Assembly (NCBI GenBank): GCA_902776955.1 | Contig: CACYSG010000045.1 | Location: 1-54,244, forward strand | Source: an uncultured Bacteroidales bacterium | Lineage (GTDB): Bacteria > Bacteroidota > Bacteroidia > Bacteroidales > Muribaculaceae | Length of the DNA: 54,244 bases | Direction of reading: 5' to 3' | In this document: positions 25,580 to 31,679 of the stretch, piece after piece | Position numbering within the stretch: position 1 is the first letter of the stretch | Layout: the number at the start of each line of letters is the position of its first letter | The notes under the pieces: generated by a model | Database searches by the model: none | What the model was told of the DNA's origin: nothing | What the model saw: the letters and a program-made list of their open reading frames with translations, nothing else | Program-made: the position numbers and the translations under genes

Positions 25580-25734
25580 TCGCACGCGAAGGCGCGAAGG
25601 CTTTTTTAGGGTATCGACGCGTGTTTAAAGGGAAAACAAGAAGTACAAGAAATACAAATTGTTGATTTTAAATAAATTATATTTCTTGTACTTCTTGTTT
25701 TCTTTTTTTTGTTGTTGTTTGACCTTGGGGCGGT
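25580..25734. repeat. Left inverted repeat of the terminase unit
   Basis: Aligns with the reverse complement of 29760-29920 over ~150 bp: shared blocks include CGAAGGCTTTTTTAGG-like, CGACGCG, TTTAAAGGGAAAACAA and TTCTTGTTTTCTT, then TTGTTGTTGTT. Inside it, 25632-25654 is a perfect 23-bp inverted repeat of 25680-25702 (core AACAAGAAGTACAAGAAATA), so the arm can fold on itself. It ends about 9 bp from the terminase stop codon. Confidence 0.85.
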
Positions 25735-25742
25735 GGTGTGGG

Positions 25743-27632
25743 TCATGCGGGGAGGAAGACGCCGGTGTTTTGGGACAGCGAGGCGTCGGGAAGGGGCGTC
25801 ATGCCGTCGGCAAGGCACTCGTCCTGCATCACCAGCAGACCGATGGCTCGAGTCATCAGGATGTCGTCGTGCTTGCCTTGGCGCGCACCGTAGCGGCCGT
25901 TGCACTCGCGGTAGTCGCGCATCTCGTTGACCGCATCGAGGTCCCGCTCGATGTAACTGTGGTCCCGCACGGCCTCGATCAGCGCCGTCACAGCCATGCG
26001 CTTGGTCTTGACGTTGGTGTGAAAGCCCAGGCTCTTGCCGTCGCGCCTGTACACCCGGCCATAGACCTGGCTCACCGACTGCAGAATATAGTCGCTCTCG
26101 CCAGCCCGCGCTGCCTCGTTGGTCAGCGTGTTGCTCTCAATCACCAGCGCTGCGTCATTGTAAAACTTGGCTAACTGCATCGACTTCCACCCCAGTTGGT
26201 CATGGTCGATGTGGCCGCGCCACTGGGCAACGATGGCCGGCGGTCGCATCCTGTCGCGCATGCGCCAGACGGCAATCACCGAGTAGTCGCTACCCTCCCA
26301 TCGGCCACCGACGTCCACCACGACGACATAGCGCACCGTCACCGCCGTGTGCCGCTCGGGCAGTTCCCACACATTGAGCAGCCCGTTAGACGCCTCGACC
26401 AAGTGGATACCCCGCTTGGCCGGCAAGCCCCTCTGCCCGTCGGCCTGGATGTCCCCCTTGAGCAACGGCGCCACGGTACAATCCCGCTGCAGACGATCCA
26501 ATTGCTCACGCGGGAACGGATTATTGCCGCTCGTGGCGAAGGCCTCGCTCGAGGTGCTGGGATACTCTGCCATCATCAGTTCGTGGGTGCGGTACTCGCG
26601 GCGCTTGGCATGATACCAGTTGATCTGTTCGAGCGTGCGGCCGTCATGCCACAATTCCCGCTCATACTCGTCCATCTGCTCCCACAACGCCGACGGGTCA
26701 TCGACGGGAAAGCGATAGATGTCGATTTCGTACCACGGCACAAACACCGGCACCTTGTCGCTGCGGTCCTGGCACGCCCGCAGCCACTCGTCGTGGAAAT
26801 AGTCGCCCACACCGTTTGCCGTGGACTCGAGCACGATGACGGTGTCGGCCTTTAACGCGACGCTGCCGCACACGCTGCGCACCACGTCGTCGGGACTGTG
26901 CAGCGGGCTCTCCTGCCAGTAGGCCACCTCGCTCAGGTGGGCCATGGCGATGTCATAGCCGCGCGCCACGTCCTCGCTGCGCGAGCTGCCCGTGAGCACG
27001 AGGCAGTCGCGTTGTTCGATCTGCTGCACGTTGGGTTGGCCCTCGAGTTTGGCGAATCGCAGCGGCTGGCTCTCGTCGTCGAGCAGTTCACGCGGATAGT
27101 GGCGCAGCAGCAGATTATACATCCGCTTGATGCCCTTGCTCGTGATGTGCTTATGGCCGCAGATGAGGCTGTTCCATCCGTGGTGGCGCACCAGCTGCAT
27201 CCATGCCAGATACATCTGCACCAACGTCGAGCCACCCCACTGGCGAGCCTTGAGCAAAATCACACGCACTGGGCGCCCCGCCACACGCTGCTCCTCCATC
27301 GCCGCCAGCAGGCGCCGCTGCGGACGATTGAGCCTCAGTGGCACGTTGCTCCCGCTCATCTTGTCCTTGATGGTCACGCAGCGGACGCACCAATACTCAA
27401 AGTCCTCCTCGATGCGCCGTCGCTCCTGTTCCAGCGGCGGCAGCGACGCGTAGTCGGGATAGCGCGCGAGCACCGCCACGGGGATGCGGGAGCCGGCCAC
27501 CTCGACACGCTCGCCCCAGCACCCCTCGCCCGTCAGCGGGTCATAGCCGCCCTGCTCGAGTTGGACCACGCGGCGCGCGTTCTCGGCCAGGATTTCATCC
27601 ATATTATTATATAATGTGTTTTCCATTTCCAA
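25743..27632 (-). CDS. Terminase large subunit-like ATPase/nuclease
   Basis: 629 aa. A Walker A-like KARQWGGSTL is at residues 128-137 and an acidic Walker B-like MAHLSEVAYW at ~230-239, then VIVLESTANG (motif III region). The C-terminal half has an RNase H-like nuclease signature, VVVVDVGGRWEGSDYS near residue 435 and HDDILMTRAIGL near 600. This is the layout of phage DNA-packaging motors. No portal, capsid, protease or small terminase is nearby. It follows the 663-aa gene by 15 nt and lies inside the inverted repeats. It is full length, so probably not simple decay; a domesticated or transposon-like use is possible. Confidence 0.85.
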   Translation of the reverse strand: MEMENTLYNNMDEILAENARRVVQLEQGGYDPLTGEGCWGERVEVAGSRIPVAVLARYPDYASLPPLEQERRRIEEDFEYWCVRCVTIKDKMSGSNVPLRLNRPQRRLLAAMEEQRVAGRPVRVILLKARQWGGSTLVQMYLAWMQLVRHHGWNSLICGHKHITSKGIKRMYNLLLRHYPRELLDDESQPLRFAKLEGQPNVQQIEQRDCLVLTGSSRSEDVARGYDIAMAHLSEVAYWQESPLHSPDDVVRSVCGSVALKADTVIVLESTANGVGDYFHDEWLRACQDRSDKVPVFVPWYEIDIYRFPVDDPSALWEQMDEYERELWHDGRTLEQINWYHAKRREYRTHELMMAEYPSTSSEAFATSGNNPFPREQLDRLQRDCTVAPLLKGDIQADGQRGLPAKRGIHLVEASNGLLNVWELPERHTAVTVRYVVVVDVGGRWEGSDYSVIAVWRMRDRMRPPAIVAQWRGHIDHDQLGWKSMQLAKFYNDAALVIESNTLTNEAARAGESDYILQSVSQVYGRVYRRDGKSLGFHTNVKTKRMAVTALIEAVRDHSYIERDLDAVNEMRDYRECNGRYGARQGKHDDILMTRAIGLLVMQDECLADGMTPLPDASLSQNTGVFLPA

Positions 27633-27647
27633 TTCAGCATCTGACTC

Positions 27648-29639
27648 CTAACTACAATAAATCCTCGTTGCCAGCAGCAGCGTGCCGCTGTGCGCCGTGC
27701 CCGTCACCGCCAGCCGCACCGTTCGCGCACGCGCCGCCACAGTCGGCGACGCCAGCGGCACATTTATTGCTCCGGCCACCGTTGTTACGCTCAGGTCGCT
27801 GTCCACAGCCATGATGCCGCGTTGCCCCACGACCTTGAGCGTCAGCTCCACCTCGTCGCCACTCACGTGCCACACCACACGCTTCAAGGCCATCCCCATC
27901 AGCTCATGCAATGCCACGGGGTGAGTGCGCCATGTGACGGGCATGACGGCGCTCTGCTCGCGTTCCAGGTCCAGCAGTGTACCGTCGTCGGTCACGGCGA
28001 CGGCGTGGCGCGGGTCGCTATAGAGCTGGGAGGCGTCGACAGTGCGCTCACTCAAGCGGCCGCTCGCCATCATCACGACCGGATAGCCCGATGCAGGCAT
28101 CAGCCACAACTCACTATAGGCCTCGCTCCATGCCAGAGCATGGTAGCCCGCATTGCGCTGCACCACCGTCACCTGGGCTCCCGACAGACGGCACAGGTGG
28201 CCATGGCGCGACACGAACCACACGTCGCGCCACGCCTCAACCGGGGCGACGCCAGTAGCGATAACCGTGCGGTCCACCAGACGCGCCTCACCCAAAGTGC
28301 CTGTCGCGCTCTGAGGGATGGCATAGATGCCGTCGTCGCTGAACACATACACCGGATAGCGGCCGAAGCCGCCCGAATACAGTGGCCGGGTCACTACCGC
28401 CAGCGTCAATGGCACGGCACCGAGCACGCTGCGGCGGTGGGACTCGGCAAGGGCGTTACCAGGCGCGCTCACGACGATGTCGCCATCGCGCGTACAGCAG
28501 TACAGGCGACCGCCGGCGCTCGTCGAACCCACAATCCCAGCCTGCGACGGCAGGTGCCCGATGGCGGCACACTGGGCCGTCGTCAACGTCAGCGGAACGG
28601 AGGGGGTCACAAAGTCGGCCCCCGTCATCCCCTGCGACACAGGGGCCGTGGCTGCCAGATGCCATGGGGACGAGGCCAGATCCATCGCGATAGCTGCGGC
28701 ACTGCGGCGCGACAGCCCCATCTCCAGCACATACTCGCGTGCGCCTATCGTGCGCGTCAGGCAACGGTAGTCGAGCGTGCGGCTCGATGTGATGAGCCTT
28801 GCGGCATCGGTAACCAGCACGTCGATGCTCTTGACCAGGGGCAACCACTCGGCAGCGACACCGCCGGTCACGTTGACACCGATGCTGTAGTGTGCCATCG
28901 ACAGCACCGCCGCTTGCGTTCCTGTAAAGCCATTGCTCCCGTTATCGACGAGGGCAGCGATGCGGTCGGCATTGGACAGCGTGACATCGCCCAGGCGGAC
29001 GGGGTCGCTCATCCACAGGTAGCTGTCATCCCACAGCCGTACGGCCCAGCGCGCCAGCAGCGGCGCGGCATAGCGGCCCTCGGCGGCGATGTCGGTGCTC
29101 AGGGCGTTCCAAGCCGAACGCAGCAAGGCGGACAGCGCGGTAATGTCGGCATCGGCCAGTGGAGCCTGCCACTGGCTGTAGGGCTCGGCAAATGGCGTGG
29201 CGGGAATGACGGCAGAGGACGTGGCGACCTGTTCGGTCAACGTCAGTGACGGGATGGCCGACGACGGGTCGAGCACGGTCCACGCCCCACCGCGGTGCGC
29301 CAGATAGGTCAGCCCGGTATCAGTCACCACTACAATCAGTTCGCCTATAGCGTGAGCTCCCACCACCGAGCCACTCACCACAGCTACCGCGGCGTTGTCC
29401 ACCTTGATGGTAGTACCCGCACATGTCACACGGTGCCCGTCGGCAATCAGCAGCAGTCGGTCACCTACCGACAGTGCGCCCACCGTGGCGGGCCGACCCG
29501 TCACCTGCAGCGACTGCTCGCACTCGCGCACGTTACGCGCCAGCACGGCCTCGCCCTCTTGCGCCGCCTCACCATTGGCCAGCGGCGTCATTGCCCGGGG
29601 TGTCACCCGGATTTGTTTCATTGCTTGATGTTTGTTCAT
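27648..29639 (-). CDS. 663-aa protein paired with the terminase; phage tail/stabilisation-like, beta-propeller-like
   Basis: 663 aa; a second possible start is MKQIRVTPRAMTPL at 29621. Beta-rich, with blade-like repeats such as DRLLLIADGHRV, GRLYCCTRDGDIVVS, PVYVFSDDGIYAIPQ and DVWFVSRHGHLCRLSG, and a C-terminal Ala/Val/Thr-rich beta-domain. The N-terminal NGEAAQEGEAVLARNVR resembles the openings of phage tail or head-completion proteins in general style, but I cannot assign a family. No signal peptide. First gene of the two-gene unit, with its own promoter. Confidence 0.65.
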   Translation of the reverse strand: MNKHQAMKQIRVTPRAMTPLANGEAAQEGEAVLARNVRECEQSLQVTGRPATVGALSVGDRLLLIADGHRVTCAGTTIKVDNAAVAVVSGSVVGAHAIGELIVVVTDTGLTYLAHRGGAWTVLDPSSAIPSLTLTEQVATSSAVIPATPFAEPYSQWQAPLADADITALSALLRSAWNALSTDIAAEGRYAAPLLARWAVRLWDDSYLWMSDPVRLGDVTLSNADRIAALVDNGSNGFTGTQAAVLSMAHYSIGVNVTGGVAAEWLPLVKSIDVLVTDAARLITSSRTLDYRCLTRTIGAREYVLEMGLSRRSAAAIAMDLASSPWHLAATAPVSQGMTGADFVTPSVPLTLTTAQCAAIGHLPSQAGIVGSTSAGGRLYCCTRDGDIVVSAPGNALAESHRRSVLGAVPLTLAVVTRPLYSGGFGRYPVYVFSDDGIYAIPQSATGTLGEARLVDRTVIATGVAPVEAWRDVWFVSRHGHLCRLSGAQVTVVQRNAGYHALAWSEAYSELWLMPASGYPVVMMASGRLSERTVDASQLYSDPRHAVAVTDDGTLLDLEREQSAVMPVTWRTHPVALHELMGMALKRVVWHVSGDEVELTLKVVGQRGIMAVDSDLSVTTVAGAINVPLASPTVAARARTVRLAVTGTAHSGTLLLATRIYCS

Positions 29640-29685
29640 GGTAATTTCTCATGATTTAAAGGTTCAACAATAACGTTTTGACATG

Positions 29686-29718
29686 CAAAGGTACATACCG
29701 CCCGCTGCGCTCCACAAG
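29686..29718 (-). promoter_or_regulatory. Promoter of the terminase unit
   Basis: Minus strand: TTG (29717-29715), ~21 bp, TACCTTTG (29693-29686). It lies between the right inverted repeat and the 663-aa gene, so the unit carries its own promoter. Confidence 0.6.
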
Positions 29719-29759
29719 CACAAAAAGCACACACGACACATCGCCGACGCCCCCTCCTG

Positions 29760-29920
29760 CTCAAGACCAACAACAACAAAATTTTAAAATAAGAAAACAA
29801 GAAATACAAGAAAAACAATTTATTGAAAATCGGCAATTTGTGTTTATTGTACTTATTGTTTTCCCTTTAAATGCGCGTCGAAGGCCTAAAAAGCCTTTGC
29901 GTCTTCGTGCCTTAGCGTGG
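29760..29920. repeat. Right inverted repeat of the terminase unit
   Basis: Inverted partner of 25580-25734 (see there). Its internal palindrome (GAAAACAAGAAATACAAGAA / TATTGTACTTATTGTTTTC region, 29793-29862) is less perfect than in the left arm. The outer edge (tttgcgtcttcgtgccttagcgtgg) is a motif also seen dispersed at 31949-31975. Confidence 0.85.
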
Positions 29921-30029: not shown

Positions 30030-31679
30030 TTAGCTATTCTGAACCTTGGTGATCAGCATGGTAACGTCGGTTACGTTGATGATACCGTCGTTGTTCATGT
30101 CAGCATAGTCAGCGTTGATGTTGCTGTAGTTGTCGTTCAAGACAGCGTTGATCAGCATGGTAACGTCGGTGATGTTAACCACGCCGTCGGTGTTCACGTC
30201 ACCAAGCTCATAAGCGGCAGCGAGAGCGGGAACGGTGTACTCGTCACCAACAACCTCACTCAGGTTCTTACCAATGTTGTAACCATCGGCAATAGCAGCG
30301 ATGTAAACAACCTGATCTTCCTCGGTACGAACTACAGTGTAGGGGTTCTCGATCATCTCAGTCAGCTGACCGGTGGTCGGATCGAACAAGAACAAGTAAA
30401 CATCAGCACCATCGGTGGAAACACCGGTGAAGGTGTAAGCATCATCACCCTCGGTAACTACGATCTGAGGAGCAGCAGCATTGCCAAGGAGGAACTTGTC
30501 GTCAACGGTGAAGGTCAGCACGTTGTTGATCATGGGATAGTAGCCCAGGGTGTACCAGTCGCTACCGAGAGCAGCCCAACGACGCCAAGTGGTCTCGTCC
30601 CACTTGATCGAGGTGTTGTCAACAGTACCATAGATAGAGTCAAGGTTCCAGAACTCATAGCCCTCTGACCAGTCATAGGCAGGATAAGCAGCTACCAGGT
30701 CATCAATGCCCTCGGTACCTACGCACTGGGGAGCAAAGAACATGGTGCCATCCTCATAGATCTTGAACTCCATGCCACGGTAACCGAACTGCCACAGGTT
30801 CCATACGTTAACGGTGGTGTCATCACTCTGATACATATAAACCTCGTTGCTGTAGCTGGTGCCACTGCTCTGAGCGGTGTAGCTGTGGGTGCCAGTGGGA
30901 GCCATCAGATAGGTACCGCGCATGATGTCAGTCCAAAGAACGCCAGCGGTGTCGGTAGTTTCAGACTGTACATTGCCGTTGCGGAGGCGAGTGGTCTTGG
31001 TGATGTCAATCGAGTAAACTGCCCATCCATCGGGAATGTAGAGAGTACCATCGTCATAGACAGTAACGGGCAGGTTGGAATCCTCCTCAGCATCGCTGAA
31101 CAGATAGTTCTCAGAAGCGAGGAATACGTACTGAGTGGTGTCATAGTAGTAAGTGGTCTGACCGCTGCGAACGGTGTCAATCCAGTGTTGGTTGAAGAGG
31201 TTCTCCATAACCATCTCACCAGTCTTAGCCTCGAGGTCGAGATTGAAAACGAAAGGAATCGAAACGAAGTACACATAAGCGTTATAAACGCCATCGCTTG
31301 CCTTCTCGAACTGGGTCATCCAACCACCCTGGCAGTAGTCACCAGCAAATTCCAAAGTATTGGAATCTGAATTGAACTCATAGGCCAGCATGAACGTAAT
31401 CTTGTCGCTCAGAACATCAGCCTCGGTAACGCGACGCGGAGCCTTCTTGATCAGCTTGTTGTCGTTCGGGGTCACGTTATTCTCAGCAAAGAAGCGCTGG
31501 GGTGACATCACTTTCTTGTCAGCTTTCATGACGGGGGCAGACAGCTGATTGGTCAACGTGTTTGCCTTCATCACCAAAGCCTTGTTGGGCTGAGCTTGGC
31601 CAGAAATGTGAACTTTGGGTGTAGCGGCCGTTGCGGTCAGAGCTGCACCTACTAACAATAATGCTAATAATTTCTTCAT
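30030..31679 (-). CDS. Secreted protein with C-terminal dockerin type I-like module
   Basis: 549 aa. Signal peptide MKKLLALLLVGAALTATA. The body is acidic and aromatic, beta-rich (IPFVFNLDLEAKTGEM, TVTVYDDGTLYIPDGWAVYS-like segments). The C-terminal ~57 residues carry two Ca-loop repeats, GDVNTDGVVNITDVTMLINA and ADMNNDGIINVTDVTMLITK, nearly identical to those at 1020-1210. Dockerins anchor proteins to cohesins in clostridia; in Bacteroidales the role is not established. Confidence 0.8.
   Translation of the reverse strand: MKKLLALLLVGAALTATAATPKVHISGQAQPNKALVMKANTLTNQLSAPVMKADKKVMSPQRFFAENNVTPNDNKLIKKAPRRVTEADVLSDKITFMLAYEFNSDSNTLEFAGDYCQGGWMTQFEKASDGVYNAYVYFVSIPFVFNLDLEAKTGEMVMENLFNQHWIDTVRSGQTTYYYDTTQYVFLASENYLFSDAEEDSNLPVTVYDDGTLYIPDGWAVYSIDITKTTRLRNGNVQSETTDTAGVLWTDIMRGTYLMAPTGTHSYTAQSSGTSYSNEVYMYQSDDTTVNVWNLWQFGYRGMEFKIYEDGTMFFAPQCVGTEGIDDLVAAYPAYDWSEGYEFWNLDSIYGTVDNTSIKWDETTWRRWAALGSDWYTLGYYPMINNVLTFTVDDKFLLGNAAAPQIVVTEGDDAYTFTGVSTDGADVYLFLFDPTTGQLTEMIENPYTVVRTEEDQVVYIAAIADGYNIGKNLSEVVGDEYTVPALAAAYELGDVNTDGVVNITDVTMLINAVLNDNYSNINADYADMNNDGIINVTDVTMLITKVQNS

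Follow-up and report, generated by a model that had tools for sequence, protein, structure and literature searches.

Terminases translocate and cut DNA, and a large terminase gene (TerL) that lies with a single partner gene, between two inverted arms, raises the question of what such a pair is for. The pair studied here is found in a Sodaliphilus genome (Muribaculaceae), in a stretch of 54,244 nucleotides that was analysed as a whole and is called the window. An earlier note on this DNA described two leftward genes, one for a 663-aa protein and then a terminase, and both open reading frames (ORFs) were confirmed in place (Table 1). We hold with good confidence that the two genes make up one locus of a head-and-packaging system of podovirus origin, which has been domesticated, is inherited vertically and most likely is a gene transfer agent (GTA).

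The terminase and nozzle genes

The 629-aa protein matched phrog_2 in a profile search (E 3.6e-17) and is 38% identical to gp51 of Bacteroides phage BKO1-TP3, which is annotated as 'tail spike protein'. Patterns that we take to be Walker A, Walker B and three nuclease motifs were each present in 77-81 of 81 TerL sequences, the relatives in this set being the best 80 of 547 confirmed genomic stretches. Judged from these patterns, the protein is a large terminase with its predicted ATPase and RuvC-type nuclease motifs intact.

The 663-aa protein has no family in Pfam and matched phrog_32516 (E 4.7e-12). Its AlphaFold2 model, built from 31 sequences, reached a mean pLDDT of 90.7, and the top 15 Foldseek matches in the PDB were all podovirus-type tail, portal-tail or virion entries (E 5e-12 to 2.5e-7; TM 0.31-0.47 by query length), with Kp9, E1004, Pa223, SU10, T7, LME-1, GP4, P22, Sf6, VP1, crAss001 and Pam1 as sources. 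Predicted viral structures also matched, several of them named P22 Gp10 or stabilization protein. The structure prediction that the earlier note had suggested for this protein thus returned a phage tail nozzle fold, and the protein models as a relative of the podovirus tail nozzle. The nozzle gene adjoins TerL in 54 of 80 relatives (best 80 of 547), and each of the two genes has a single match in its own genome.

The base composition of both genes was also recorded. GC content was above that of the flanking coding DNA in 74 of 77 loci for TerL and in 56 of 56 for the nozzle gene; in viral contigs, TerL GC exceeded that of the remainder in 18 of 23.

Table 1. Positions of the gene pair, its flanks and the partner loci (window coordinates unless a contig is named)
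Feature	Position	Strand	Description
TerL	25743..27632	-	629 aa from TTG; downstream ATG at 27626
Tail nozzle protein	27648..29639	-	663 aa; T7 gp12 / P22 gp10 / SU10-like fold (predicted)
Promoter element GTGCTTTTTG-N27-TAnnTTTG	29686..29730 (29730-29686)	-	upstream of nozzle gene; common to the C38 portal-capsid locus
Left arm	25580..25734		dispersed palindromic repeat copy, directly 3' of TerL
Right arm	29760..29920		same dispersed repeat; 3' of dockerin gene 30030-31679
Portal, scaffold-like, capsid and M15 lysin genes in a row	contig C38: 15679-11884		between host genes
Promoter element, same form	contig C38: 15830-15786		upstream of portal gene
TerS-like and neck-like genes	contig C37: 47603-46536

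Partner loci and a promoter element

The earlier note had seen no other phage gene nearby. This agrees with a Pfam scan of 15 of the other window ORFs, which gave host-type families or no match; further particle genes were found on other contigs. On contig C38, the row consists of a portal (P22_portal, E 2.1e-20), a 129-aa scaffold-like protein (phrog_22323, E 0.00036), a capsid (SU10_MCP, E 1.6e-48) and an M15 peptidase (phrog_894 endolysin, E 1.1e-35). On contig C37, the TerS-like profile matched phage gp49 homologues (best E 1.4e-13; gp49 of BKO1-TP3, 1.6e-6), which in phages sit immediately upstream of TerL, and the neck-like profile gave a weak match (E 0.0012); the labels TerS-like and neck-like rest on position, size and these profile matches. 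A pooled query of small phage proteins had no match in the window's own genome, and its weak match in genome G001 pointed to this third locus. The gene pair as a complete element is ruled out, as it is one of at least three loci. Capsid and portal, like TerL and the nozzle gene, have one match each in the genome, so no second complete phage of such a kind was found there.

Next to the portal gene in G010, four genes appeared conserved as well; they were set aside as carrying host-type Pfam families (GYF_2, DUF805, CD225, DUF2752). In the alignment, the capsids of Sodaliphilus (L083:12279-13685 and homologues) have an N-terminal hydrophobic, membrane-anchor-like segment; shorter capsids (414-432 aa) are found in G349, G271, G413 and G061.

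The promoter that the earlier note had placed at 29686-29718 lies inside a longer element, which recurs upstream of the portal gene. The exact decamer GTGCTTTTTG has only these two sites, nozzle and portal, in 94,556 bases of the genome. Across 936,505 bases from 49 loci, there were 29 matches to NTGCTTTTTG with TAnnTTTG 15-40 nt downstream of it; the spacing was 27 in 28 of the 29, and 27 of those 28 precede a nozzle or portal gene, a specificity that holds within loci of this kind since every locus had been chosen around a gene of the system. When 36 of the loci were shuffled five times, no such match arose. Among nozzle loci of relatives, the exact element was present in 19 of 32 and the other 13 carried it with at most two substitutions and a spacing of 26-28; none of 224 other ORFs had the loose form upstream, and nine of 384 random 700-bp windows from those loci contained it. 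Similarly, the own-clade portal loci have the exact element in seven of nine cases, with one at spacing 26 and one at a contig end. The TerS locus is without the shared element, and its promoter sequence differs. Taken by their upstream sequences, the nozzle-TerL and portal-capsid loci are apparently co-regulated.

In other Sodaliphilus lineages (L100 and L101 of G014; L155 of G005), the portal and capsid loci have TTGACCTTG in common before TAnnTTTGCGG, a motif that hints at lineage-specific co-regulation.

Dispersal, conservation and inheritance

The chromosomal loci differ sharply from viral contigs in what surrounds the terminase. None of 80 chromosomal loci (best 80 of 547) had a homologue of capsid, portal, scaffold, gp45, gp46 or gp49 near TerL, against 80 of 80 viral contigs (best 80 of 576), and for capsid or portal the counts were 0 of 80 and 78 of 80 in the same two sets. 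The flanks covered up to 10 kb, with at least 5 kb on both sides in 52 of the 80 chromosomal loci (best 80 of 547); in these 80, no homologue of the BKO1-type integrase was found. By these counts, and within the flanks covered, the 80 TerL loci (best 80 of 547) are not intact prophages, which have contiguous structural, replication and integration genes.

Genomes with the genes on one contig show how far they are scattered. In G328, a single-contig genome, they lie at 1.132 Mb (nozzle), 1.149 (portal), 1.294 (TerS), 1.395 (capsid) and 1.428 (TerL); in G392, the same set extends across about 454 kb of one contig, and in G295, again a single-contig genome, across about 56 kb. G328 and G392 have host neighbours in common at four of five loci, and G057, from another family, has TerS-locus neighbours in common. 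In G175, of the sister genus g27, nozzle, TerL, scaffold, capsid, gp45, portal, TerS and neck genes form one 10.5-kb run between host genes; its TerL is 44-47% identical to the window's own. The Sodaliphilus arrangement is a broken-up version of such a cluster.

Two IMG/VR records listed as viral (L236, L237) are close to the G175 cluster (TerL 75%, portal 71%, capsid 73%) and are perhaps chromosomal clusters mistaken for viruses. Separately, one chromosomal locus, L231, includes a prophage-like piece (L231:1-9536) with a gp44-like tail protein, an endolysin-like gene and, judged by eye, an integrase-like gene; this piece stops about 400 bp short of the terminase.

Within the genus, own genome included, the terminase and the nozzle gene were each found in 35 of 37 genomes, the TerS/neck locus in 36 of 37, and capsid and portal each in 22 of 23 tested. 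The congeners without some part (G020, G023, G028, G031) are 62 to 81% complete genomes. Records of Avimuribaculum and Muribaculum contain the terminase as well. In a scan of the whole order, the capsid profile matched 33 of 393 genomes, of which 31 belong to seven GTDB families (f1, f22, f28, f60, f68, f88, f109) and two are phage-like (G055, G347). A gp45-like gene, perhaps a head-tail adaptor (its predicted model is poor, pLDDT 57.6), was detected in 14 of 37 congeners and, among these 37, in none of the own clade. The nozzle is truncated in L177.

Inheritance was followed against RpoB, which was recovered in 26 of 30 genomes queried. The trees share 18 of 22 splits with RpoB for TerL, 12 of 23 for the capsid and 10 of 22 for the portal; shuffled labels share at most three, and at most two for TerL. 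The moderate congruence of capsid and portal may be due to short proteins or to some exchange. In a TerL tree of 66 rows, 25 phage sequences stand alone on one side of a branch supported at 97/93, with 38 chromosomal and three paralogous sequences on the other.

A second terminase occurs in four genomes: in G008, where its contig also carries phage genes, and in G024, G033 and G035 as a divergent, terminase-like paralogue (L057:9245-11083, L056:9885-11696 and L055:9810-11690, respectively). The paralogue keeps the Walker patterns and none of the three nuclease patterns, and forms a long branch within the Sodaliphilus terminases. Its neighbours include AAA_25 and DUF6371 genes, and it may be a packaging ATPase turned to new use.

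A candidate gene transfer agent and its rivals

That these loci form a domesticated podovirus packaging system is almost certain in our view, and a GTA function for it appears probable. GTAs are described, in an excerpt of PMC9662315, as having caudoviricetes-derived particle proteins, full endogenization, often over several loci, and mostly vertical inheritance with host co-diversification; further, their own genome is not fully packaged, mostly random host DNA is encapsidated, and DNA is delivered to other cells. The first three features were found here: TerL, portal, capsid and lysin families together with the nozzle fold; three contigs in the own genome and scattered genes in single-contig genomes; and the tree splits in common with RpoB. 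With three of these six features the system is therefore GTA-like, not a proven GTA. The distance of up to 454 kb between loci bears on the self-packaging feature.

We further lean towards an ancient podovirus-derived GTA, kept across Muribaculaceae and related families as unlinked mini-loci tied by a dedicated promoter, which would be the first in Bacteroidota according to the literature searched, where none is described. In the GTA reading, a common regulator would lead some cells to build SU10-type heads on a P22-type portal. TerS, TerL and the portal would then load the heads with host DNA by a headful mechanism with no site preference, the nozzle would close the head and later deliver the DNA, and the M15 peptidase would aid particle release through lysis.

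Among known systems, the RcGTA, BaGTA and BhGTA viriforms are similar in their phage-derived proteins, endogenization, often at several loci, and host co-diversification (PMC9662315, in excerpt). Unlike these, which belong to other host phyla and to three independent origins, the present TerL is related to Bacteroidales-type phages, and gene transfer is here a prediction. The nearest in style, compared by description, is FpGTA of Faecalibacterium prausnitzii (PMC12946183, in excerpt), a candidate from another gut bacterium with podovirus-like TerL, TerS, portal, scaffold and capsid and with two loci. Its two separate operons lie about 125 kb apart in one strain, and the present system is also multi-locus; the second FpGTA operon encodes baseplate and fibre proteins, a holin and an endolysin. 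FpGTA belongs to Bacillota and its particles and packaged DNA have been shown, whereas the present system belongs to Bacteroidota and is known from its genes. The same source, as excerpted, reports lateral transduction in Bacteroides. Among phages, BKO1-TP3 (PQ571269) has homologues not only of TerL (38%) but also of capsid (40%), portal (36%), the scaffold-like protein (32% over 87 aa) and the nozzle (21% over 328 aa). In contrast to the present loci, its genes are contiguous in a single genome of 65 kb, which by annotation has genes for integrase, recombination and replication and for giant tail proteins.

If the GTA reading is true, common gut bacteria would have a built-in DNA-exchange system, and this group of gut Bacteroidota would gain a gene-transfer route absent from the literature searched. 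TerL, the SU10-type capsid and the nozzle would serve as marker genes for particle data. In addition, the phage-like cluster of G175 and the scattered loci of Sodaliphilus and G328 would be two ends of one route, and as both ends are visible, the change from phage to host trait could be traced by comparison.

Several findings weigh against the GTA reading: a gp45-like gene was not detected in the own clade, searches revealed neither a tail fibre nor a holin nor a regulator, some parts are broken, truncated or missing in single genomes, capsid and portal trees match RpoB only partly, and the TerS locus is without the common element. The main rival is a domesticated phage particle whose heads or nozzles have another job than gene transfer, such as DNA release, DNA storage, other delivery or programmed lysis. 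The lack of a recognised receptor-binding protein and of a detected gp45-like adaptor in the own clade fits such a particle, as does the M15 lysin within the capsid locus. Against it, nearly all of the 81 TerL sequences (relatives being the best 80 of 547) have the ATPase and nuclease motifs, and the TerS-like and portal genes persist as well; this indicates DNA packaging, and we consider this rival unlikely.

New GTAs are hard to distinguish from dead prophages (PMC11841831, in excerpt), and decaying or separately acquired prophage remnants would account for isolated genes, for a capsid match in broken pieces in G007 and G015, and for G349 (99% complete), in which capsid, gp45 and portal are present and TerL and nozzle were not found. 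But 80 of 80 relatives have an uninterrupted TerL frame (572-702 aa; best 80 of 547), and the dN/dS of TerL has a median of 0.17 and a maximum of 0.41 over 40 pairs, the closest of 129 screened; for the nozzle gene it is 0.19 over four pairs. RpoB congruence, common host neighbours and the common promoter element also speak against remnants, which are largely refuted and, in our estimate, highly improbable. The domesticated phage remnant that the earlier note had offered as one reading gains from the same open frames, purifying selection and vertical inheritance, and from the further conserved particle genes.

A capsid-forming phage satellite (a cfPICI-like island) is similarly very hard to sustain. 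A cfPICI is an integrated island with integrase and replication genes that takes its tails from helper phages. A head-and-packaging set without fibre genes, in one 10.5-kb run in G175, would suit such an island, but no integrase or replication gene was seen among the listed ORFs of that run (by similarity to the phage set) or of the C38 locus, the genes of G295, G328 and G392 are scattered across 56 to 454 kb, and they are inherited along with RpoB.

The earlier note's other reading was a compact transposon-like element between inverted repeats of about 150 bp. The arms it described are real: 25603-25709 and 29786-29892 are 86% complementary across 107 nt, a second pair of 20 nt at 90%, blastn between the arms gives 83% over 133-137 nt (E 3.7e-34), and the left palindrome (25632-25654 / 25680-25702) has 23 perfect base pairs. 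The note had proposed to test whether such arms always travel with the pair, and had named their presence as ordinary dispersed repeats with no terminase in between as a result that would refute the idea. The left arm recurs at 14 further places in the genome at E <= 0.01 (11 at E <= 1e-4), and arm-like sequence adjoins the unit in 0 of 80 terminase-bearing relatives and occurs anywhere in the locus in three of 80, 2.6 to 5.3 kb off (both for the best 80 of 547 stretches). Each arm is thus one copy of a palindromic repeat that is dispersed in the genome and is not beside the pair in these relatives, and the two bound no element. A two-gene transposon, for which inverted arms on both sides of the pair in this genome would speak, is practically excluded by these counts, by the single genomic match of each gene, and by the DUF6048 gene that flanks the pair here and is found close to TerL in 32 of the 80 loci of the window's lineage (best 80 of 547).
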